The position numbers and the translations under genes were made by a program. From assembly GCF_014524565.1 (NCBI RefSeq), contig NZ_CP060139.1, positions 3,293,501 through 3,357,500 on the forward strand: DNA of 64,000 bases, given 5' to 3'. Below are positions 18,848 to 37,626 of the stretch, in pieces. Numbering within the stretch: the first letter of the stretch is position 1; each line of letters starts with the position of its first letter. Below the pieces are notes generated by a model that saw nothing but the letters and a program-made list of their open reading frames with translations, ran no database searches and was not told the DNA's origin. Origin of the DNA: Croceimicrobium hydrocarbonivorans (GTDB lineage Bacteria; Bacteroidota; Bacteroidia; Flavobacteriales; Schleiferiaceae).

Positions 18848-21800
18848 CTATGCTTCAACCTGGTTGAGTACTTTATTTGCTTCTTGCCTAAAACGAGGGT
18901 CTTTCAGCATTTCATCAAATAGCTGAATGGCTTTTCTGAGTTCCAAAGAGTTTTCTTGAATAGAGAGTGCATTATATGCGCCAATTAATACTTTGATCGG
19001 GTCATTGTCGTAATGTCGGCTGGAGGAAATATCAGGTTTGTCGTATTTGCGAAAGTGCTTGAGTAGTTCTATACACTCTATTGGATGAGTTTTGGCGGAT
19101 TTCAGGAGGTATTCGTAAAAGTAGTGTGGCGATTTTTGGGCAGAAGCAGAGCGGGTGTACTGGCGAAGAAATGGTAACAGTTCTTCAAACATGCATTGTG
19201 GTATGTGGAGAAAGGCGCGGGAATAGGCCTCAACTACCTCATCACTATTAAAGTGCAAAAATGCCATCAGCTTTGTCTTACATTTTTCCTTTAATTCAGG
19301 AGAATGAGCCATGTTTTGAGTTGCACTGTAAATGATGGCTGATTTTGCTTTATCACTTACTTTGGCGAGATCATCTAATAGTAATTCAGCATTAGGTTTG
19401 TGTTTAAGCCACGCTTGCATCAAAACGGTAGAGAGGTTTTCGTGCGTGTCTTCTATTTCAATCGCTCTTTGGAAGTAGGGTATCAACCGGTCGAAATTGT
19501 GGTTGAGCAGGTATGAGGATGTCCAAAACGACTGTTTGATTATTTCCGGTTCGTTTTTGGAAACCAGCTTTAAGAAAAGGTTCAGAGTCTTTTCTTCGTT
19601 TAGATGCATGAGCAAGGCAAGACGTGGAAGCACTGCAACTCTTACTGCCAAGCTTGGATCGTCTGCCACTTGATTGAGGCAAGCAAAGATTTTGTTTTCG
19701 TAATTCTTGTTGAAGAAGGTTCTACTCAGGTGTGATGCTCCTGCGCCTCTTACGGTGTTAATGCCATCATTGAGTGGTTCGTTTCTAATGATGTTGTTTG
19801 AAGGGTCGGGATGGTTTAGTGCACAGTCAATTAAGAAATCAAGTACTTCAGTGTCTAACGATTTGTTTGCCAGAAAATAATCAGTGATCCAAATAGCATA
19901 TAATGTATGATTTCTATCGAGTGTAGTCTTTATGTACTGCTTGTAGATCCGTTGGACTTCAATAAAATCAAATTTGCCTTCAACCAATCCGTTTAAGCCG
20001 CTGGAAACGTAGTCTCTGGGGATTTGAGGCTCGGAAATAATCTTTTCAATAAGGGAAAAGAAGAAGTCCGGCCTTTTTTTGACTTCCTCCTGAAAAGCTC
20101 GTGAATGTTCAAGTATGGAGCCTCTAAAAGAGCCAAAATCAGGCTTGTAATCTCTTGTGTATTTCTGAAATGTTTCTTCCCAATTTTCATGCTTCATATT
20201 AGCATAGGCGCTTTTAGTAAGTGGTGCTCCAACACCACGGGTTACAAAACCTTGTGGCTTTTCATCTCTTACGCTACCAAATTTGCGCTCTAGTTCTTGA
20301 TATCTTTTTTTTAGGGCTGGCCTATTTTTAATCTCGTTATCTGGTATTGATTTCAGGAATATGAACTGAGCCCGCCCGTAGTATGGGAGGTAGTGTTTTT
20401 TAACTCCTTTTTCCTCGTATACTTCTAAATCAGTTTTGTCCTGATGCTCTAAGATCATTTTGTCAATCTGATCTTTCTGTTCAGAGCTGAATGCTGAATA
20501 GTTTTGGTTTATGAGTTGTCTGATTTGATAGGTACAACGTTCCGTGCCTTCGTTGAAACCTCCTTTTGAATGGAAAATTTGGATGAACTCGAATTCTTCG
20601 TTTTTATAATGTGCTGCATTGGCTTGAAGGCCGTGAGCTAATACTGTGAGCATTGTTGCGGAATTGTGATTTTTATACGCTTTAAAGAATTGAAAGAACT
20701 TAGGAGATGTGTCTTCTGCGAATTTTCTAAGTTGATCGATTAGTAGATTGAGGAGAAACTCATTAGAGTAGGACTGGCCCTTCTCATAGCTATACCACAT
20801 GTATATAGAGTCTCCGTAGAATTTTGTTTTGTCCAGCCAACTGTTATCATCAATTAGTTTTTGGGTAACTTTTAAGGTAAAATCGAAAGCTTTGTCAGGG
20901 TTTACTTTAAAAAGTTTCTTGAACAATTCTTCATCGTCATGCCTAAAAATGTCTCTTGTCGATCCGGGTTTTCTTGGTTCTTCAATTTTTTGAAAGCATA
21001 GCTTTTTATAAGTTGTCAGTACCCAATCCATTTTAAAGTGGGCAGCATCTTCCAGAATTTTGTAATAGCCAAATCTGTCTTTATTCGCTTCCGCTTCATT
21101 TTCTTCGAAAAGGCGAACGGCGTCCTCATTGTCCCAATCCTTTAGAAAATACAGCACTTTAAAGATAAAGCTAGGTCGACCTTGAAAGTCTGGAGTTTCT
21201 CTAAGAAATTTGCACACCAGTTTTCCTGATTCTGGTAATTGCCTTATGAGAGTTTGAAGGCATAATTGTAGATTTTCCTCTTGCCAGGTTTCGGGTAGCT
21301 TGTAATTTATCCTGCGGGTGATTCTCTCTTTTAGAGGGTTCATCTTTTTGAAGTCTATTTTAAGCAGATTGTCATACCAAAAGGTTTTTGGAAGAAGTAA
21401 TTCTGTCAACACACGAGATTCGATCAATGTCTGAAGCCAGGTTTCTCCAAACGCTGATTCAATAAATAGCTGCCTTAATGCGGAAGACGTTAAGACCTTG
21501 GATTTAACCAGAAATATTTCTGAATCGGTTGGTTCTGTTTCGAATCCTATGAGATTGATGACCATTAGCCTTAGATGAAATCGATAAGCCCTGCTGATCA
21601 GAATAGTTGAGATGGTTTTGACGTATTCTTTGTGGTCATGGTCTCTCAGAAATTGAAGAATCATTTTCAGACTTGACCGAATGAATAAACCTTGATGATT
21701 TCTCTTTAAATAGGCTAGGGTGGATTGTTTGCTGTTGATGAATTGCCGCGCATAGGTAAAATCATAGAAGGTTTGGTGGAAGAACTGAATTTTACCATCT

Positions 21801-23485
21801 CCTTGTGTTATGATCTCTACGCTTTTCAAGTAGTCTATTTCATCAAGAAATTGGTCATTCAAGCCCTTCTCTGAGATGAAAATTTCTTGGTTATCGTGCA
21901 TTTGTTTGGCAAGGTGATATACCAACTCTTGGCACTTCTCTTTCTTGGCGTTAGAGGTGTTGGGCACTTTCAGGATTTTACTGATCCAAAGTTGTTCGTG
22001 TAGGTCATGCCGAGATTTTAAAGTACTCAAATTGACGCCTTCATTATGGACTTTGCACAATACGTTGAGATGGTGAGGTGTTCTTAGCAGTTCATAGAGT
22101 GATTTGCTTAGTGTGGCCTTGTTGATTTTGAGATGAGATAGTATTTGATCCACTTGGCTAACGTTAAGCAAACCAAGGTTGAAGACTTTTTGGTTTTTAT
22201 AAAACTTTAATTCGTTGTCATAATTCAAATCGTATATTCTAGCGGAGATTACGATTCGAGTTTTCGCAATAGTGCTTAAGCTTCGAACAAGGTGATTAAA
22301 CGTGTCGAGGTAGTCCCTGCGCGCTGATAGTGACTGAGAAAGAGCGTCAATTTGATCAATTATTATCACCACCCTTTCGTTGTGTGCAGAAAGTGTGCGG
22401 ATAATCTTTTCGAAAGAGTCTTCGAGGTTTAATTTCTCTTCTAATTCTTTAATTGATAAGGCTGTATGTCTATCGGCTTTAAGGCCAATGACAGGTATTC
22501 CATCCGTTTTAAGCTTGTTGTAAACATCTTGAAGTACAACAGTTTTTCCTGATCCGGCATTTCCCGATAAAATAGCAATAGGCTTGTGCTTATCCGGTAT
22601 TGGCTCTTTTATCCATCTTACAATTTGGCTTGTTTCAGTTCGATCTAAGTGAGAATTTTCAACGCCCTCAAATGAGTTATTGTAACTAGTTAATTGGTAA
22701 GATGCAAACTCAATCTTTCCCAAAATCACCTCAAGGGGTAATTTGGAAGTCGGCTGATATTCTACACTTCTTTTAATTTGTCCGAGATCATCTAAAATTT
22801 GATCTGAAACTTTTGAATCGATCACACTCCTGACCTCGAAGAAAGTCTTAATGATTGATTCGCGGCCTTCTTCTAAAAGCAGTTTATCAATATCCTGCGG
22901 AAGAATAGGTTTTACACTTATTCGACTGAGAGTGTCTTTTAGATCGTCACAAATATGTTCATATTCCAAATGGCCGAGAGAGGCATTGTCGGAAATAACT
23001 TTTTGCGTCCAGGTTTCTAAATCTGGATGTTCGATTATTTGACTGTTGAAATTGCTGATTAAGTTTGATGCGTTCTCTGTAAAACCATAAGCAACAGCAA
23101 AAAAATAGGTGAACTGATCTTTGTTATGTATGAGCTTAGGCTCAACAATGGAATGAAGAACAAATTTAATGATCTCTCGGGCTGCTGTAGGTAAGGAGAC
23201 ACGTTCTGCAACAGCAGTGTGTTTACACTGAATTAAGGCAACGGTATCACCTTTGAGAGTCATGATACAATCACGTCCCCGTTCTCTAACTCCTTGCAAA
23301 AGTCTTATCTCATCAAATACGTTTTTCCAATCTCCGTTTTCGATCCTTTCAAGGCCAACCGCATAGAGTAGTTCCTCAAATCTTCGTGAATCTGCAAGAG
23401 ATTGGTAGGGGAACCCCTTATTCGCTATGGCCTGCGGTTTTGGTTTTGATTCTTCAATTTTTGGTTTGGTATAAATCAGCCCCAT
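18848..23485 (-). CDS. Avs-like STAND NTPase with N-terminal nuclease-like domain
   Basis: A 1545-aa protein with three parts. Residues about 30-130 look like a PD-(D/E)xK nuclease: RFEELL, then GRDCIMTLKG with Asp72, then the variant QCK (Q86, K88) on the next strand. Residues about 260-600 are a STAND-type NTPase with Walker A GNAGSGKT (308-315), Walker B VVIIIDQID (372-380) and a sensor-like strand TRIVISARIYDL. From about 600 to the end it is helical and repeat-like, the expected ligand-recognition part. This nuclease-NTPase-repeat plan and the size match antiviral Avs (AVAST) proteins, which bind phage proteins, oligomerise and switch on the effector domain to kill or arrest the infected cell. 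The exact Avs class cannot be assigned by eye. It stands alone. Confidence 0.85.
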   Translation of the reverse strand: MGLIYTKPKIEESKPKPQAIANKGFPYQSLADSRRFEELLYAVGLERIENGDWKNVFDEIRLLQGVRERGRDCIMTLKGDTVALIQCKHTAVAERVSLPTAAREIIKFVLHSIVEPKLIHNKDQFTYFFAVAYGFTENASNLISNFNSQIIEHPDLETWTQKVISDNASLGHLEYEHICDDLKDTLSRISVKPILPQDIDKLLLEEGRESIIKTFFEVRSVIDSKVSDQILDDLGQIKRSVEYQPTSKLPLEVILGKIEFASYQLTSYNNSFEGVENSHLDRTETSQIVRWIKEPIPDKHKPIAILSGNAGSGKTVVLQDVYNKLKTDGIPVIGLKADRHTALSIKELEEKLNLEDSFEKIIRTLSAHNERVVIIIDQIDALSQSLSARRDYLDTFNHLVRSLSTIAKTRIVISARIYDLNYDNELKFYKNQKVFNLGLLNVSQVDQILSHLKINKATLSKSLYELLRTPHHLNVLCKVHNEGVNLSTLKSRHDLHEQLWISKILKVPNTSNAKKEKCQELVYHLAKQMHDNQEIFISEKGLNDQFLDEIDYLKSVEIITQGDGKIQFFHQTFYDFTYARQFINSKQSTLAYLKRNHQGLFIRSSLKMILQFLRDHDHKEYVKTISTILISRAYRFHLRLMVINLIGFETEPTDSEIFLVKSKVLTSSALRQLFIESAFGETWLQTLIESRVLTELLLPKTFWYDNLLKIDFKKMNPLKERITRRINYKLPETWQEENLQLCLQTLIRQLPESGKLVCKFLRETPDFQGRPSFIFKVLYFLKDWDNEDAVRLFEENEAEANKDRFGYYKILEDAAHFKMDWVLTTYKKLCFQKIEEPRKPGSTRDIFRHDDEELFKKLFKVNPDKAFDFTLKVTQKLIDDNSWLDKTKFYGDSIYMWYSYEKGQSYSNEFLLNLLIDQLRKFAEDTSPKFFQFFKAYKNHNSATMLTVLAHGLQANAAHYKNEEFEFIQIFHSKGGFNEGTERCTYQIRQLINQNYSAFSSEQKDQIDKMILEHQDKTDLEVYEEKGVKKHYLPYYGRAQFIFLKSIPDNEIKNRPALKKRYQELERKFGSVRDEKPQGFVTRGVGAPLTKSAYANMKHENWEETFQKYTRDYKPDFGSFRGSILEHSRAFQEEVKKRPDFFFSLIEKIISEPQIPRDYVSSGLNGLVEGKFDFIEVQRIYKQYIKTTLDRNHTLYAIWITDYFLANKSLDTEVLDFLIDCALNHPDPSNNIIRNEPLNDGINTVRGAGASHLSRTFFNKNYENKIFACLNQVADDPSLAVRVAVLPRLALLMHLNEEKTLNLFLKLVSKNEPEIIKQSFWTSSYLLNHNFDRLIPYFQRAIEIEDTHENLSTVLMQAWLKHKPNAELLLDDLAKVSDKAKSAIIYSATQNMAHSPELKEKCKTKLMAFLHFNSDEVVEAYSRAFLHIPQCMFEELLPFLRQYTRSASAQKSPHYFYEYLLKSAKTHPIECIELLKHFRKYDKPDISSSRHYDNDPIKVLIGAYNALSIQENSLELRKAIQLFDEMLKDPRFRQEANKVLNQVEA

Positions 23486-27131: not shown

Positions 27132-27401
27132 TTATCCGCCCTCCTCAAAAAAGTCATTGTCAATTTCTTTAACCTCGTAAGTCTCTTTGATTTGCACGCC
27201 CACATTGTATTCATACATTAGGTTTACCAATCGAGCTCCATCGATCAGAATAATTGAATGATGCGCTTCCTTCGCCTTTTGAATGGCCTTGGCATCAAAA
27301 GAAGAAGTAGTGATGAAAATACCTTTGCGAGTATCGCCACTCATGGCGCCAATAAAATTGCGGATATCCGTTTCCCGAACATTGGACTGATTAAGGTTCA
27401 T
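27132..27401 (-). pseudogene. Detached 3' end of an Mrr-type endonuclease gene
   Basis: From Val-Arg-Glu-Thr-Asp onward (about 27380 down to 27134) the translation matches the last 80 residues of the intact Mrr protein encoded at 47546-48442 with only three replacements. The DNA differs at roughly 20 of 250 positions, mostly silent. The catalytic Asp and Gln-x-Lys residues lie upstream of the matching part and are missing, so it cannot cut DNA. The first residues (MNLNQS) come from foreign sequence. It has the same orientation as the intact copy 20.4 kb away. Confidence 0.85.
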
Positions 27402-30352: not shown

Positions 30353-32005
30353 ATGGCAATCCCAGTAATTGACATTTTTGCTGGTCCCGGAGGACTTGCA
30401 GAAGGCTTTTCATCGCTAGATGGTGGAAGGGCTTTCGATATTCGCTTGTCTATAGAAAAGGAGGCGAATGAACACCGGACCTTAGAGTTGAGAAGTTTTG
30501 TAAGACAGTTTGAGCGGAATAAATTACCCGAAGCCTATTACCAAGTAATGCGAGAAGCTGATTTAAATATGCGTGAGCAATTAAAACAGCAACTATACAA
30601 GGATTTTCCAGAACAATATTTGCAAGCGAAAACTGAAGCTTGGCAATGTACCCTTGGTAGCGATGAATTCCCTCCTGAAAAGGTGAATGAAAGAATAACT
30701 AATGCTTTAAATGGAGCAAAGGATTGGATTTTAATTGGAGGGCCTCCTTGTCAAGCTTATTCTTTAGTAGGGCGCTCAAGAAGACAAGAAGGAGAAACAG
30801 GCCTAAACCCTGATGATCACCGTGTTCACCTTTACAAGGAGTATCTCCGAATAATTGCTACGCATCATCCAACTGCTTTTGTGATGGAAAATGTTAAAGG
30901 TTTATTATCGTCGAATTTGGGCGGAGAAAAAATCTTTCCCAAAATTCTGAGTGATTTACGTAAGCCGGGCAGGGTGTTTAGAAAGTTCAATGCTCCGGAG
31001 TATAAAATTTATTCTCTAACCACAAAACCCGAAGCATATGATGAAAATGGTCATCCAGTTTATAAAAATGATTATGACTATCTAATTCAAGCTGAGAATT
31101 TCGGAGTTCCACAAAAACGGCATCGTGTTATACTTTTTGGAGTCCGAGCTGATATTGATGTGCAACCAAATGTATTGAATAGAACAGAGCCAGTTAGTTT
31201 AAAAGATGTTATTGGAGACCTTCCTTCTTTGAGAAGTAGTATCAATCGTTCTTTTGTGAGGGCTGAACAATTGAAAAATGAAGATGGAAGCATTAAAACT
31301 AAACGATATTACCAGAACGAGATCGATTCTAATGAAAGCTGGAAGCAGGTTATTCAAAAATTCCATGCTGAAATAATATCGATGAATGGATTTGCTCATG
31401 ATATAGACTTTAAAAATATTTGGCTTTTAGATGGTGGTACTGGTGATGAATTCGTGCCTTGTATAACTCCAAAAGCAACCAATCCTCTTTTTGATTGGTA
31501 TGTCGATAAACGATTGAAGGGAGCTGCAAACCATCAGTCACGAAGCCATTTGGTACAAGACTTGAAACGCTACCTCTTTGCGGGCTTGTATACTTTAAAA
31601 TATGGAAAATTCCCACGAATGGCCGACTATGCTGCTCATGGCAAGGAGTTATTGCCAGACCATGAGAATGCTGAATCAGGCAAATTTACTGACCGATTCC
31701 GAGTTCAGTTACCTGAGGAACCAGCAACGACCATTACTAGTCATATTTCAAAAGACGGACATTACTTCATCCACTATGATACATCGCAATGTAGAAGTTT
31801 TACAGTTCGGGAAGCTGCTCGAGTGCAGACGTTTCCAGACAATTATCTTTTTTGTGGAAGCCGGACTAGTCAATTTCATCAAGTTGGAAATGCGGTACCT
31901 CCCTTGTTAGCATTTCAGATTGCAGAAGTTGTGAAAGAGTTGTTTAATAATATAGACCAAATTGAGGCTTCAAAGACTAAGAAACTGCAACAGGAATTGA
32001 TATAA
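30353..32005 (+). CDS. DNA (cytosine-5) methyltransferase
   Basis: A 550-aa methyltransferase. Motif I is DIFAGPGGLAEGF (residues 7-19). The catalytic motif IV GGPPCQAYS has its Cys at 133, motif VI is MENVKG (178-183), motif VIII is QKRHRVILFG, and the C-terminal motifs are VREAARVQTFPDNY and QVGNAVPP. An insertion of about 80 residues between motifs I and IV (40-120) and a target-recognition region of about 200 residues make it longer than the basic 330-430 aa. It transfers a methyl group from S-adenosylmethionine to C5 of cytosine; the target site is unknown. The next gene starts 8 bp after its stop. No type II endonuclease is adjacent. Confidence 0.95.
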   Translation: MAIPVIDIFAGPGGLAEGFSSLDGGRAFDIRLSIEKEANEHRTLELRSFVRQFERNKLPEAYYQVMREADLNMREQLKQQLYKDFPEQYLQAKTEAWQCTLGSDEFPPEKVNERITNALNGAKDWILIGGPPCQAYSLVGRSRRQEGETGLNPDDHRVHLYKEYLRIIATHHPTAFVMENVKGLLSSNLGGEKIFPKILSDLRKPGRVFRKFNAPEYKIYSLTTKPEAYDENGHPVYKNDYDYLIQAENFGVPQKRHRVILFGVRADIDVQPNVLNRTEPVSLKDVIGDLPSLRSSINRSFVRAEQLKNEDGSIKTKRYYQNEIDSNESWKQVIQKFHAEIISMNGFAHDIDFKNIWLLDGGTGDEFVPCITPKATNPLFDWYVDKRLKGAANHQSRSHLVQDLKRYLFAGLYTLKYGKFPRMADYAAHGKELLPDHENAESGKFTDRFRVQLPEEPATTITSHISKDGHYFIHYDTSQCRSFTVREAARVQTFPDNYLFCGSRTSQFHQVGNAVPPLLAFQIAEVVKELFNNIDQIEASKTKKLQQELI

Positions 32006-32013
32006 TTTAATTA

Positions 32014-34179
32014 ATGGAAGATTATAAGGAAATAACAAGAATAAGACCTGCAGCAAGGATAATATCGACAATAGGTGAGGACCTAGTCGGAGATTCATAT
32101 GCCGCGATAGTGGAGCTTGTGAAAAACGCATATGATGCGGATGCTAGTTATGTGGAGATTGTTTTTGATTATACGGAAATGGATGGGAATCCAGTCCTCA
32201 AAATCGAAATAAAGGATGATGGGCATGGAATGACGACTGAGGTTGTTTTAAATAAATGGTTGGTTCCTGCAACAAAGGATAAATTAGATAGGCGAACCAG
32301 TCCGAATGGGCGGTTGTTTCAAGGACGGAAAGGAATTGGAAGATATGCGGCTGCAATTTTAGGTCAGGAATTACTGTTAGAGACGGTTGATCAAAATAAT
32401 ACTCAAACACAGGTTTATATAGATTGGCAATTATTTGAAGAGATTGAATTTCTAGAAGATGTTGAGGTCGTTGTTGAACGTAAAAATGTTAACAAATCTC
32501 CTGGAACTGTCCTTCATATTACAGCTACTGGTCACAAACTTGATCAGTGGCGTAAACCTGAATTGGCTTCATTAACTAAAGAATTAAGAAAGTTAAAATC
32601 TCCTTTTGAGTCTCACACAAAGGATAAGTTCAATATTAATTTGGCATTTTTTAATTGCCCGTTTGATGAATATAACGATCAGGTGTTTGAGATTGAGGCA
32701 TTTCCAATAATTAAATTGTTTGACTACAGGATTAGCGGATCAATAGGTAAGAATGGGAAGGTTATATGCACTTATGAGAACCAGTCTGAGCAGAATCTTC
32801 CATCAGAAACTTTAGAGTTTGATATCTCGCTACCTATAGAATTGAACTATCCTGGCCCTGTGGAATTCGACTTTAGGGTATTTGATCGTGATAAAGAGGC
32901 TGTTGAAAATCTAATAAATAAGGGTCTTATTGACCCGATTTCGAAAAATGCCATTGGGAAAACGGAGGCCAAAAGGCTACTTAATGAAGTATATGGCGTT
33001 AACCTTTATCGAGAAGGCTTTAGAGTAAGACCATACGGAAATGGAGGAATTGACTGGTTGGATTTGGATAAAGATCGAATCCAAAACCCATCTGTGAGAG
33101 TTGGGAATAATCAAGTTGTCGGGTTTATCAATGTTAAGCCAGAAGAGTTATCTCATTTAATAGAAAAAAGCGCTCGAGATGGATTCAAAGAAAATACTTA
33201 TTATTTCGGATTAGTACGATTGCTGAAATCTGTTTTAGCAAGATTGGAGGAACGCAGATATATTTATCGACGAAACACAGGTAAAGGGAGGCATGTGAAA
33301 AGTGTAAGGCAGGAACTTAATGAGCTCTTTGATTACACAAGTCTTACAGAACAGATAAAGAAGAAACTCAGCTTCACAAATGCAGAGGATAAAACCATTA
33401 ATGAAGTTGCAGCAATTATCCAGAAAGAGGCTGAAATTAAGACCAAGCTTTTAGAGAATATTCAAAGCACAATTGCCATTTATCAAGGTCAGGCTACTTT
33501 AGGGAAAATTGTAACAGTGCTCTTGCATGAAGGGCGGAAACCTGTAAGTTATTTTAAGCAACAGTCACCAAATCTTGTTAGATGGCTAGAACACTACAAG
33601 GCTAAAAAAGATTGGAATGATAATCTTTTTGATGATATTACAGAAAGACTCCAAACTTTTAGAGATCAGAGTGAACATTTGTCTCAGCTCTTTAAAAGGC
33701 TTGATCCATTAGCTAAACAAAATAAAGGAGAGCGGAGATTTTTTAGTCTTAAAAATGCCATAAATAAGGCAGTTTCAATCTTTGATGCAACTTTGATCGA
33801 ATCTCAAATTGACTTTAGGTTAGAATGCGATGATTCTATTGAAATTAAAGGATGGGAAGAAGATATTATTATTGCAGTCACTAATCTGGTTGAGAATAGT
33901 GTATACTGGCTAAATGAATCAAAAAGTGATGATAAAGCTATATCTATTGTTGTTGAGAATGGAGAAGATATAATTATTCATTATCGTGACAATGGTTCGG
34001 GAATTGATGAAGATAGTATAGAGAGTGGAGCAATCTTTGAGCCTGGGTTTTCAAAAAAATTGCATGGTACAGGTTTAGGTTTGCCAATTGCAGGAGAAGC
34101 AATGGAAAGGTTAGGAGGAAGCATATTGGCTCATTATTCAGATTCAGGGGCATATTTTACGTTAGAATTGAAAAAATAA
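32014..34179 (+). CDS. Fusion of MORC/MutL-like GHKL ATPase and histidine kinase
   Basis: A 721-aa protein with two GHKL ATPase modules. The first (residues 10-130) has the N motif ELVKNAYDADA, the G1 motif KDDGHGM (Asp69) and GRKGIGRYAAA. An S5-like middle follows (about 330-410; YREGFRVRPYGNGGIDWLDL). This is the plan of MORC/MutL-like proteins known from restriction-modification islands. After a helical segment the second module is a histidine kinase core: LLHEGRKP (His505), N box NLVENSVYWLN, G1 RDNGSGI, G2 GTGLGLPIAG. There is no membrane helix. It lies between a methyltransferase and a receiver-domain gene, so it probably senses DNA or infection through the first ATPase and passes phosphate to the receiver. 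Confidence 0.9.
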   Translation: MEDYKEITRIRPAARIISTIGEDLVGDSYAAIVELVKNAYDADASYVEIVFDYTEMDGNPVLKIEIKDDGHGMTTEVVLNKWLVPATKDKLDRRTSPNGRLFQGRKGIGRYAAAILGQELLLETVDQNNTQTQVYIDWQLFEEIEFLEDVEVVVERKNVNKSPGTVLHITATGHKLDQWRKPELASLTKELRKLKSPFESHTKDKFNINLAFFNCPFDEYNDQVFEIEAFPIIKLFDYRISGSIGKNGKVICTYENQSEQNLPSETLEFDISLPIELNYPGPVEFDFRVFDRDKEAVENLINKGLIDPISKNAIGKTEAKRLLNEVYGVNLYREGFRVRPYGNGGIDWLDLDKDRIQNPSVRVGNNQVVGFINVKPEELSHLIEKSARDGFKENTYYFGLVRLLKSVLARLEERRYIYRRNTGKGRHVKSVRQELNELFDYTSLTEQIKKKLSFTNAEDKTINEVAAIIQKEAEIKTKLLENIQSTIAIYQGQATLGKIVTVLLHEGRKPVSYFKQQSPNLVRWLEHYKAKKDWNDNLFDDITERLQTFRDQSEHLSQLFKRLDPLAKQNKGERRFFSLKNAINKAVSIFDATLIESQIDFRLECDDSIEIKGWEEDIIIAVTNLVENSVYWLNESKSDDKAISIVVENGEDIIIHYRDNGSGIDEDSIESGAIFEPGFSKKLHGTGLGLPIAGEAMERLGGSILAHYSDSGAYFTLELKK

Positions 34180-34183
34180 ATAC

Positions 34184-35314
34184 ATGGAGATTCTGAAGAT
34201 ACTTATTGCAGAAGATGATGATTCAGAACTGCAAACCTATAAGGATGCTATTAAAACCTTCAATCAAGAGTACAATGGGACTTATTCTATTGAGGCCATA
34301 ATGTGCAGAACTGAAGAAGATGGTCGGGAAAATTTGGCTAAGTTTCAAAATGATTTTTGCGGTGCAATTATAGATTTAAACTTATCGGGGATTGCAGCAG
34401 GTAAAAGAGAAGGAAACAATCTAATTATGACTATTTATGATAGTTTAAGATTTCCGGTATTCGTAGTTACTGGTACACCAGGAGATATTGATAAAAATCT
34501 GCCATCTGACAATCTATTTCTAAAAGTAATAACAAGAGGTGAAAAGGATTTTATCGAAATATATCGGGAAATTTTATCCATATATGAAACAGGAGTTACT
34601 AAAATATTGGGTAAGCGAGGTCAGGTAGAAAAACGTCTAGATGAGATATTTTGGAAGCATTTGTCTAATTCCTTTGACTTTCTTTTAAATAGTGGTAAAG
34701 ACTCCAATTATAAAGAACAGATACTTTTAAGATATACACTGGCTCACCTTCAGGAGTATTTAGATTTGGATGAAAATTCTGGGGGCTTTCTATATTATGA
34801 GGCTACCGAATTCCTCCTAACTCCTGTTATCAAGAAAACTCCTTATACTGGGGAAATTGTGCGAGATAAATCTACTGAAGAATACTTTGTTATACTTACA
34901 CCTGCGTGCGATATGGCACAAGAAAAAGCAAGAAGTATTTTGTTGGCTAAAATTGAATTGAAATCTGAAGAAGGAACGTTAAGGGATTTTATTTCCTTAG
35001 CTAAGAAGGAGCCAAAGAGCTATGAAGATGCGAAAAAAGTTGACGCTGCGAAAGATAGGCTTCAAGAAGTAATCAGGAACCGATGGCCAAAATATCATTT
35101 AGTGCCCGGAAGTAATTTAATGGAAACTGGGCTTATTAATTTTCAGAAATTAAAGTCAATAAAGGTGAAAGAACTTCGAGGTGGGTTTGATAGAATAGCT
35201 CAGATTAATGGAGCGTTTGTTAAGGATATTATCGCAAGATTTTCATATTACTATTCAAGACAAGGTGCACCTGATTTGGATCAGGAGGTGATATTAAGGA
35301 ATATTTTGAATTGA
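34184..35314 (+). CDS. Receiver-domain protein with unknown C-terminal domain
   Basis: A 376-aa protein starting 4 bp after the kinase stop. Residues 1-130 are a receiver domain with acidic residues AEDDDS (10-13), phosphoacceptor Asp64 in AIIDLNLSG, Thr in VVTGTPG (about 96-98) and Lys114. The rest (130-376) is not a DNA-binding output domain. It is helical first (FWKHLSNSFDFLLNSGKDSN), then has a strand-rich part YFVILTPACDMAQEKARSIL with a conserved-looking Cys-Asp, and ends in helices. I do not recognise it. As the last cassette gene and the only candidate for an effector, it may be a new nuclease or other toxin controlled by phosphorylation. Confidence 0.88.
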   Translation: MEILKILIAEDDDSELQTYKDAIKTFNQEYNGTYSIEAIMCRTEEDGRENLAKFQNDFCGAIIDLNLSGIAAGKREGNNLIMTIYDSLRFPVFVVTGTPGDIDKNLPSDNLFLKVITRGEKDFIEIYREILSIYETGVTKILGKRGQVEKRLDEIFWKHLSNSFDFLLNSGKDSNYKEQILLRYTLAHLQEYLDLDENSGGFLYYEATEFLLTPVIKKTPYTGEIVRDKSTEEYFVILTPACDMAQEKARSILLAKIELKSEEGTLRDFISLAKKEPKSYEDAKKVDAAKDRLQEVIRNRWPKYHLVPGSNLMETGLINFQKLKSIKVKELRGGFDRIAQINGAFVKDIIARFSYYYSRQGAPDLDQEVILRNILN

Positions 35315-35914: not shown

Positions 35915-36904
35915 TTAGGATTTGTTCGTAGGCTTAATGGTCCAATCAATGGTTTTGAGGCGTTCTTTAATCCTGTAGAGTGTTTGTAGTATGTCTTCTT
36001 CGCTTGCCAATGTTCCATAAACCATTTCAGAAAAAGAGCTGAAATAAACTCCCTTAAGATGTTTCCATGTGTTTTCAAGGTCTTGGAATAGTATTGCTTC
36101 TATAGGATGCAATGCTAGCCATTCATTTCCATTTTTGTATCCATGAACATCGTCGTAGCCTACCTTATGCAGCATTTCCTCAAAAGCTGAAGAGTCAAAA
36201 AACTCAGCCACTTCGTCCAAGTTTAGGAGTTGATGCAGGTCATAAATGTGTCGAATCTTTAATTTTAAGTCTTCAATAGCTTGTTTAGAGTGGGAGAAGC
36301 GCACCAAGCTCATCAACTTTTCACAAAAGGTTCGGGTAACAGAAAGTACTCTTACTTGAAATGGCAAAAGATCGTATTCCTTAGCTAAATCTTGTTGACC
36401 CATACTCATCATCATGTTATATATGTATGAGCTTAGCTCTTTGCTTGTATAAGGTTCATGGCAGCCCAGCCAGGATGATTCCAAGATTAACACATCACGA
36501 ATTTGGCCATAGTTGCCTTTAAATTGTTTGGAGTAGGAGTGGGCGGTTTTCCGGATCATTCCTAGCTTATTGGTAACTCCTTCAAGAGAAATTTCAGGAA
36601 GAACTGGTTCAATTGCCAAGGATATTGATTTTAGCTTGTTTTTTAGTTTGTTTCCAGAATCCCCATCCTCATTCAATACCACTATGTCAATATCTTCTGA
36701 AAACCTATCGATGATTCCATAGCATTTTGAAAGCGCCGTGCCCCCTTTGAATACTGCGTATTTCGAAGCGTCGCTATTAAATATAGCTTTAAGTGCAAGT
36801 GTTACCCAGTAGTCTTTTTCAATGTAGATATCTTTTATACCTCTATACTGTGCGGTAAAGCGTATGGACTGTTCAAATAGTTTTCTGTTTTCATGTAGTC
36901 TCAT
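35915..36904 (-). CDS. abiEii: AbiEii-type nucleotidyltransferase toxin
   Basis: A 329-aa protein of the AbiEii/AbiGii toxin family. The nucleotidyltransferase core is visible as FKGGTALSKCYG followed by RFSEDIDIVV (the two Asp metal ligands), and the helical C-terminal half is typical. These toxins inactivate tRNAs or other targets by nucleotide transfer and cause growth arrest or abortive infection. The start at 36904 is chosen because its ATG overlaps the antitoxin stop (ATGA); the frame also has an ATG at 36916. It is the second gene of a type IV toxin-antitoxin pair. Confidence 0.92.
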   Translation of the reverse strand: MRLHENRKLFEQSIRFTAQYRGIKDIYIEKDYWVTLALKAIFNSDASKYAVFKGGTALSKCYGIIDRFSEDIDIVVLNEDGDSGNKLKNKLKSISLAIEPVLPEISLEGVTNKLGMIRKTAHSYSKQFKGNYGQIRDVLILESSWLGCHEPYTSKELSSYIYNMMMSMGQQDLAKEYDLLPFQVRVLSVTRTFCEKLMSLVRFSHSKQAIEDLKLKIRHIYDLHQLLNLDEVAEFFDSSAFEEMLHKVGYDDVHGYKNGNEWLALHPIEAILFQDLENTWKHLKGVYFSSFSEMVYGTLASEEDILQTLYRIKERLKTIDWTIKPTNKS

Positions 36905-37626
36905 ACAATGTTCCATTTTGAAGAGTTAGCCAACACATTATTGCTAATTCCAATTTTGTAGGAGCTAATAGGGTTTAGGCTATCTGATAAAGCTGTTGTT
37001 CCAACTTCGGGCTTTACCTGATCTATAATTGCCCCTAAAAGGGCTCGTGTTGAAGGAGGGTATTTTTGAGCTAATCTTAGTATGGTGTTAATGTTCTCGG
37101 AGCTTAATTCACTGATAATTGCCATTAGCCTCCTGCAAGAAGTGTCAATCGCAGTGTCAGGTATTTTTTTAATGTTCTTTATGGCATCTAGTATTTGGAG
37201 TAAAGGAATGTTATCCTTGCTAATGTTGTTTTTTTGTCGAACGAAAGAAATAGTGTATTTGCCACGTGTGGTAGCCGGTCTCACGTTGCCGCAGCCAATT
37301 TGAATAAGCGTACTTATCTGAGTTGTTAGTCCCAGCCGGTTATAAATGGTAGGGCCAGTGATATAGCCAATAAGCTTACCGTCCTTCTCTAAGAAATCTT
37401 TAACTATCTGGTATTCATCTGGTAAAAGTTCACCAAAAGGGCTTTGCTCAGGTTTATAAAATTTGCCTTTTGAAAGTTTGCTTATTTTCCCAGAATCAAC
37501 CAATCGATTTAAAGCTTTTATCACTGCTTCTTGCTTATTGGCCTCAGCTAAAAAATCCTCATAGGTGAATACGTAGCCTTTAGGGAGGTTGTTTATTTTA
37601 TATTTCACGTATTCAGTTACCTTCAT
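36901..37626 (-). CDS. abiEi: AbiEi-type antitoxin (DUF6088)
   Basis: A 241-aa protein. Residues 1-70 form a winged helix (VFTYEDFLAEANKQEAVIKA, then ALNRLVDSGKISKLSKGKFY), the DUF6088/AbiEi DNA-binding part. The rest is the C-terminal antitoxin domain (KLIGYITGPTIYNRLGLTTQ). In characterised systems the antitoxin counteracts the toxin without binding it and represses its own promoter at inverted repeats. Such an inverted repeat occurs 31 bp upstream here. It is translationally coupled to the toxin gene. Confidence 0.88.
   Translation of the reverse strand: MKVTEYVKYKINNLPKGYVFTYEDFLAEANKQEAVIKALNRLVDSGKISKLSKGKFYKPEQSPFGELLPDEYQIVKDFLEKDGKLIGYITGPTIYNRLGLTTQISTLIQIGCGNVRPATTRGKYTISFVRQKNNISKDNIPLLQILDAIKNIKKIPDTAIDTSCRRLMAIISELSSENINTILRLAQKYPPSTRALLGAIIDQVKPEVGTTALSDSLNPISSYKIGISNNVLANSSKWNIV

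Follow-up and report, generated by a model that had tools for sequence, protein, structure and literature searches.

The closest described relatives of the locus reported here are the proteins with HATPase_c_3, HEF_HK and HATPase_c domains presented by Bellieny-Rabelo et al. 2021, which, according to the accessible text of that paper, are linked to a receiver-like gene and have C5 methylases upstream (PMC8011034). The same text gives both GHKL domains for 174 of 222 HEF_HK proteins and a figure of 91.6% for the linkage of the receiver-like gene to GHKL genes, proposes a paraMORC origin for the proteins, and names no output domain (PMC8011034). Prokaryotic MORC and paraMORC proteins, in which a GHKL domain is combined with an S5 domain, had been found beside DNA methylases by Iyer et al. 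2008, with Vsr endonucleases in relatives; the available parts of that paper give them nuclease, TIR or other extensions and no kinase fusion, whereas the protein described here is fused to a kinase (PMC2292703). An N-terminal GHKL domain of the same kind also occurs in the BbrUII/HgiDII family and in VcSduA, a paraMORC3-type Shedu protein, in which mutating either the GHKL site or the nuclease abolishes phage defence, as reported in the accessible part of PMC12137116. These are restriction enzymes or proteins that end in a nuclease, whereas our fusion ends in a kinase. Its kinase half shares DHp and CA domains with kinases of the ZraS, FixL and ThkA type, with the H box HEGRKP in place of HEIRNP. 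Kinases of that type usually have PAS or membrane sensors; the part ahead of the kinase is here a MORC-like ATPase.

The locus lies in a window of 64,000 nucleotides of the Croceimicrobium hydrocarbonivorans genome, the whole stretch of DNA analysed in this study, and consists of three genes on one strand, for a methyltransferase, the kinase fusion and a receiver protein, with gaps of 8 and 4 bases (Table 1). It is like the HEF_HK system in its soluble protein with HATPase_c_3, a His-Glu DHp and HATPase_c, in its adjacent receiver gene and in its upstream C5 methylase. It differs in having HEG where HEF is usual, and in its receiver, which has 376 aa where those of the six HEF_HK loci used have 525-687 aa. 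No match to PF19191 was found in the fusion at E<=1 (cut-off 24.1 bits) or in the whole genome at E<=0.001, nor does the receiver match PF19192 (Response_reg_2) at E<=1, a model to which the true match in L070 scores 117.6 bits. The architecture itself is not new: it was published as a prediction in 2021, as far as the accessible text of that paper goes (PMC8011034). Our literature search, in which coverage was thin for subscription journals and did not include bioRxiv, returned no experimental test of such a fusion. In view of the 2021 prediction, as given in the accessible text (PMC8011034), and of this search result, we regard the finding as a new branch of a predicted kind.

Table 1. Features of the methyltransferase-kinase-receiver trio, in positions of the window
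Feature	Position	Strand	Basis
C5-cytosine DNA methyltransferase, 550 aa, first gene of the trio	30353..32005	+	Pfam, NCBIfam, motifs
MORC-like ATPase / histidine kinase fusion, 721 aa	32014..34179	+	intact ORF, Pfam, model, alignment
N-terminal GHKL + S5 module, residues 11-419	32044..33270	+	Pfam HATPase_c_3, MORC3 model match
Asn38 codon, N-terminal N box	32125..32127	+	40/40 homologues
Conserved stretch of predicted S5 domain, residues 336-375 (FRVRPYGN..DWLDLDKDR)	33019..33138	+	alignment
DHp helical hairpin, residues 494-567	33493..33714	+	low-confidence model and profile match
His505 codon, predicted phosphoacceptor	33526..33528	+	40/40, aligned to solved kinases
Catalytic ATP-binding (CA) kinase domain, residues 570-721	33721..34176	+	Pfam HATPase_c, ThkA CA model match
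Asn628 codon, C-terminal N box	33895..33897	+	40/40 homologues
Receiver + output-domain response regulator, 376 aa	34184..35314	+	no Pfam match at E<=1
Receiver (REC) domain, residues 1-138	34184..34597	+	structure and profile
Asp64 codon, predicted phospho-acceptor Asp	34373..34375	+	9/9 invariant
Output domain, residues 207-365; model resembles MazF fold	34802..35278	+	Foldseek
PxCD motif (P240, C242, D243)	34901..34912	+	15-copy alignment
RxGxP motif (R359, G361, P363)	35258..35272	+	15-copy alignment

Sequence and structure of the fusion protein

A first-pass annotation, made from the letters and open reading frames alone, had proposed a single protein with two complete GHKL ATPase sites. 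Both are indeed complete in the translation: the N-terminal site comprises VKNAYDADA (with N38), DDGHGM and GRKGIGR, the C-terminal site NLVENSVYWLN (with N628), DNGSGI and GTGLGLP. Pfam assigns HATPase_c_3 to residues 30-139 (E 9.7e-22) and HATPase_c to residues 617-720 (E 1.2e-18), two separate matches far above chance, and finds no match to HisKA in the protein. Among the NCBIfam models, NF050001 (the BbrUII/HgiDII restriction enzyme family) matches residues 18-177 with E 1.5e-16, below its cut-off, and many histidine kinase models match the C-terminal half, all of them below their cut-offs in the best 25 of 61 matches. PADLOC models match the protein through its N-terminus only.

In the structural model (mean pLDDT 76.4, pTM 0.57, 16 alignment rows) residues 11-419 match the MORC3 ATPase 5ix2_B with Z 22.0 and rmsd 3.8 over 303 aligned residues; MORC4 follows with Z 20.0, and MORC2 and Hsp90/TRAP1 with about 19. 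As modelled, the N-terminal module is MORC-like or paraMORC-like, with GHKL and then S5 in the MORC-like arrangement. The MORC-specific S5 motif GhXhhpXXRhl is absent from the 721 residues in a pattern scan based on our own reading of the residue classes, which agrees with paraMORC proteins, described in the available parts of Iyer et al. as lacking that motif (PMC2292703). DNA binding by this module and ATP hydrolysis at both sites are predictions from sequence.

The C-terminal part of the model matches the CA domain of ThkA (3a0t; Z 20.9, rmsd 1.6, 144 aligned residues) and also ZraS (Z 21.4, 213 aligned residues), the latter with an rmsd of 15.1, so that the two kinase domains do not superpose together; HK853 was also matched. 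The DHp domain appears as two long helices, 496-531 and 536-567, with a pLDDT of about 40-73 per ten residues (481-570), a low confidence that makes the profile match as important as the model for assigning the helix pair. That profile search, run against solved structures, matches residues 486-712 to ThkA with E 7.3e-23 and also to ZraS and FixL fusions, and places H505 on the H of HEIRNP (ThkA 3a0r, ZraS 9jfj) or of HELNQP. The proposed covalent fusion of a clamp-type, MORC-like ATPase to a histidine kinase is supported by Pfam and the structural model.

Conservation and phylogenetic placement

Homologues were collected from several searches. Matches at E<=1e-20 came from 18 of 296 genomes in the phylum search, matches to PF19191 from 12 of 296 genomes, and matches on plasmids from 54 records at E<=1e-25, 41 of them from Campylobacter. 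The final set of 40 full-length kinases holds the window, 11 of the 54 plasmid records, 19 other places from the phylum search, the second kinase in L070, three loci from the receiver search and five from the PF19191 search. Excluded from it were the remaining plasmid records (mostly Campylobacter near-copies), a kinase fragment of 116 aa in L055, and the PF19191 matches L034, L035 and L038-L040. An earlier alignment had 36 rows; seven of its weaker matches, other kinase ORFs of the window's genome (E 7e-8 to 9.5e-12; L003-L007, L009), were not carried over into the final set. The fusion is present in one copy in its own genome, and the 12 other matches there concern the C-terminal part only. 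A search of genome contigs for related loci returned a single locus, L001, matched over residues 488-719 only, and no related locus was found in viral contigs.

The residues N38, D68, G70, G72, K106, G107, G109, R110, H505, N628, G687 and G689 are each kept in 40/40 homologues, a number that represents fewer than 40 independent lineages because some rows are near-copies (L043/L051; L060/L061/L069). N624 is kept in 39/40 and D659 in 37/40, and in the conserved S5 stretch R337 is kept in 37/40, D347 in 40/40 and W348 in 36/40. His505, which lies in LLHEGRKP as read in the translation, had been suggested as the phosphoacceptor on the understanding that it should be conserved among homologues; it is kept in every one of the 40, falls on the HEIRNP histidine of ThkA and ZraS, and stands as the candidate. 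An E or D directly follows it in 38/40. The 36-row alignment has H505 in 36/36 and N38 in 31/36, the other five being gaps in ORFs that are cut at the ends of short loci or misaligned there.

The tree of the 40 kinases places the window in a group with Hymenobacter, with Enterobacter and with rows of its phylum (99/98). Campylobacter and Fusobacterium join this group next (100/100), and the six HEF_HK rows stand apart from it. The separation of the window's branch from the HEF_HK branch is supported with 97/98. The patchy spread over phyla and plasmids suggests transfer.

The receiver protein and its output domain

A receiver protein was also mentioned in the first-pass annotation, and one is encoded 4 bases downstream of the kinase, with its phospho-Asp kept in 9/9 close partners. 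The model of its REC domain matches the REC domain of ComE (4mld_B) with Z 16.0 and rmsd 2.2 over 126 aligned residues, and the receiver profile finds solved receivers, the best being 4q7e (E 6.4e-7). D11 and D64 are invariant in the 9/9 close partners. Arg118 (34535-34537) stands at the position of the presumed REC lysine, which is R in 6/9 and K in 3/9 members of the family, a point that counts against a phosphorelay. The receiver search also collected many ordinary receivers, but with the full-length profile it reached no more than a handful of genomes. PADLOC contains no model that the receiver matches at E<=1.

For residues 207-365 neither Pfam (E<=1) nor the PDB sequences (E<=10) gave a match. 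An alignment of 15 output domains (numbered as in the whole receiver) has G223, C242, D243 and R359 in 15/15 and P240, F320, G361 and P363 in 14/15. Of 35 partners, 25 have a PxCD-like pattern when N, Q or A is allowed in place of the Pro. Seven partners without it (L045, L046, L047, L050, L062, L063 and L067) are short, with 212-309 aa; of the others, L055 is truncated by the end of its contig, L057 has TPLCN, and L070a has RPDCD, which the pattern missed. Some receivers of the HEF_HK system have the PxCD output domain too: on that branch L156 is matched by the output profile with 1.5e-8, L157 and L158 show weak matches to it, L070b has the pattern, and neither profile nor pattern was found in L159 and L160.

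With Foldseek the whole-receiver model (pLDDT 72.0, pTM 0.43) matches MazF 5ck9_B with E 2.5e-4, TMt 0.70 and rmsd 4.2, and other MazF chains more weakly. We place these matches on the output domain because the REC half has matches of its own; with VIA-align, REC chains fill the listed matches of the receiver model. The MazF-matching region is mostly modelled at pLDDT 54-92, and the output domain is likely to have a MazF-like fold in this model. Sequence homology to PemK/MazF (PF02452) found no support when tested: the hhalign score of 14.7 was reached by 9/300 shuffles and equalled by one of three unrelated families, after a smaller test with 20 shuffles and one reversed alignment in which none reached the score. 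The catalytic residues of MazF are apparently not kept in the output domain.

Partner pairing, methyltransferase linkage and separate nuclease or hydrolase genes

In all 35 loci for which gaps were tabulated, the gene immediately after the kinase has the same orientation and a loose phospho-Asp pattern, at a distance of at most 26 bases or with an overlap of up to 131 bases (L055, where the start was chosen mechanically). All 40 partners have, near the start, a hydrophobic strand ending in a receiver-like acidic pair.

The methyltransferase of the window matches Pfam DNA_methylase (E 1.4e-45) and NCBIfam dcm (E 6.3e-39), and PCQ and ENV are visible in its translation, motifs that form the C5-methylase signature. 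A C5 methyltransferase lies within the examined stretch of 29/40 loci, directly upstream in 20, where stretch lengths differ and the one counted for the first kinase of L070 may belong to the second. Among the scanned loci an N6/N4-type methyltransferase is directly upstream in L046 (below cut-off), L050, L055 and L067, and the methyltransferase of L056 was assigned to this type through clustering with L055. None was recognised by these searches in 6/40 loci (L041, L045, L049, L065, L068 and L156), which counts against the modification-linked defence reading given below, as does the lack of a separate nuclease gene in the window's trio. In L102 a gene matching type II restriction-enzyme models, of the AAA_5 kind and, as we assume, McrB-like, lies between methylase and kinase. 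A DISARM assignment was discarded: PADLOC matched the methylase of the window strongly to DrmMII, but none of the other DISARM models matched any of the six proteins of the window that were scanned.

A nuclease or hydrolase gene is found near six of the seven short-receiver loci, which are not six independent cases because all short-receiver loci except L062 form one side of a single tree branch (97/96, against the other 34 rows). It encodes an MBL-fold hydrolase in L046, L067 and L045, an HNH protein similar to PtuB in L050, and HNH_2 proteins in L063, directly after the receiver, and in L062, beyond the far side of the kinase; the HNH_2 of L062 comes from the scan and that of L063 from clustering with L062. 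In L045 (7800-9753) the annotated pieces of the MBL-fold gene are split by an IS982 transposase. By analogy alone, such genes support an effector role for the PxCD domain. In L158 an HNH_2 gene follows the HEF_HK trio although the receiver has an output domain. A 226-aa gene behind the receiver of L047 looks caspase-like to the eye, an identity that no search supports and that we dismiss.

Functional interpretation

Domain make-up, conservation of catalytic residues, gene order, pairing and methylase linkage come from computation, and from them we infer DNA sensing, phosphotransfer and phage defence. We incline, with some reserve, to the view that the three genes form a two-component system linked to DNA modification, probably a defence module of restriction type. 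Further points in favour are the HNH, MBL or AAA_5 genes in relatives, the patchy spread across phyla and on plasmids, and the AbiE genes and the STAND-like ATPase gene in the same window. The methyltransferase would mark host DNA, and the N-terminal MORC-like ATPase might close on DNA as an ATP-driven clamp in a way that depends on the mark. Closure would join two C-terminal kinase halves, so that the CA domain could phosphorylate His505 in the DHp, as the conserved parts suggest; the pairing of the genes points to Asp64 of the neighbouring receiver as the next station of the phosphoryl group. The receiver may then release or activate its fused output domain (PxCD...RxGxP), which would fill the place apparently held by separate nuclease or hydrolase genes in related loci. 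A more specific form of this proposal, possible but doubtful, has the clamp read DNA methylation and pass the signal through the phosphorelay to a receiver-fused effector with a MazF fold and a Cys-Asp/Arg active site, the effectors (PxCD domain, HNH, MBL) being interchangeable across relatives. If this form were true, a restriction toxin or nuclease would be switched by phosphorylation and not by direct cleavage at a recognition site.

The same components could serve regulation. The sensor would then read methylation, and the output domain would alter expression or methylase activity, so that the methyltransferase or genes of the host are tuned. The accessible text of the 2021 paper proposes control of R-M systems by signalling (PMC8011034), and directly beside the trio no nuclease gene is annotated or recognised in the window or on two Campylobacter plasmids. 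However, Pfam finds no DNA-binding output domain in the window's receiver or in the ten partners scanned, and HNH or MBL genes lie near several of the short-receiver relatives, which makes a purely regulatory role unlikely in our view. It is very unlikely that ATP or NTP levels, and not DNA, are what the N-terminal GHKL domain senses, a speculation contained in the available parts of the same paper (PMC8011034): the site is predicted to bind nucleotide and is placed where sensor domains usually lie, but the module continues into an S5-like part, its model matches MORC3 over 303 residues, and the linkage to a DNA methyltransferase stands against it as well. Most improbable of all is a degenerate fusion, in which the kinase half would act as a scaffold without phosphotransfer; the Arg118 at the receiver's presumed lysine position would fit such a decay, but the complete retention of H505 and N628 in the kinases and of D64 in the close partners does not.

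The wiring of a MORC-like module to a kinase offers a simple readout of what such bacterial ATPases sense, namely the phosphate on His505. Should DNA engagement govern this phosphate, a decision of restriction type would be linked to two-component signalling, and the output domain, common to several partner families, would, if the reading is true, represent a new effector class.

Further observations in the window and in related loci

On the conjugative Campylobacter plasmids L043 and L051 a C5 methyltransferase gene stands convergent to the kinase-receiver pair. On a Hymenobacter plasmid (L042:215-10303) a Vsr gene precedes the trio, and genes for a DUF3883 protein, a second GHKL ATPase and a Z1-domain protein follow it; together they may form a larger cluster of restriction type.

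G171, G353 and G039 have proteins of about 185 aa that consist of little more than the output domain. Stand-alone PxCD-like genes for proteins of this length are located at L152:7392-7946, L104:8054-8614 and L154:7321-7875; two of them adjoin genes for 114-115 aa and 213-244 aa without a Pfam match above cut-off, and one is near a gene for a ClpP-like protease.

About 0.6 kb downstream of the trio, on the opposite strand, the window encodes an AbiEii-type nucleotidyltransferase and an AbiEi-like antitoxin as a pair (35915-37626, -). A protein of 1545 aa (18848-23485, -) has a STAND-like AAA ATPase domain, with AAA_16 above and NACHT and nSTAND below cut-off, and its gene is possibly a further defence gene. 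Type IX sorting domains are also encoded in the window and fit a Bacteroidota genome. An ORF of 89 aa (27132-27401, -) matches only the C-terminal half of the Mrr_cat restriction endonuclease and is likely a gene remnant.
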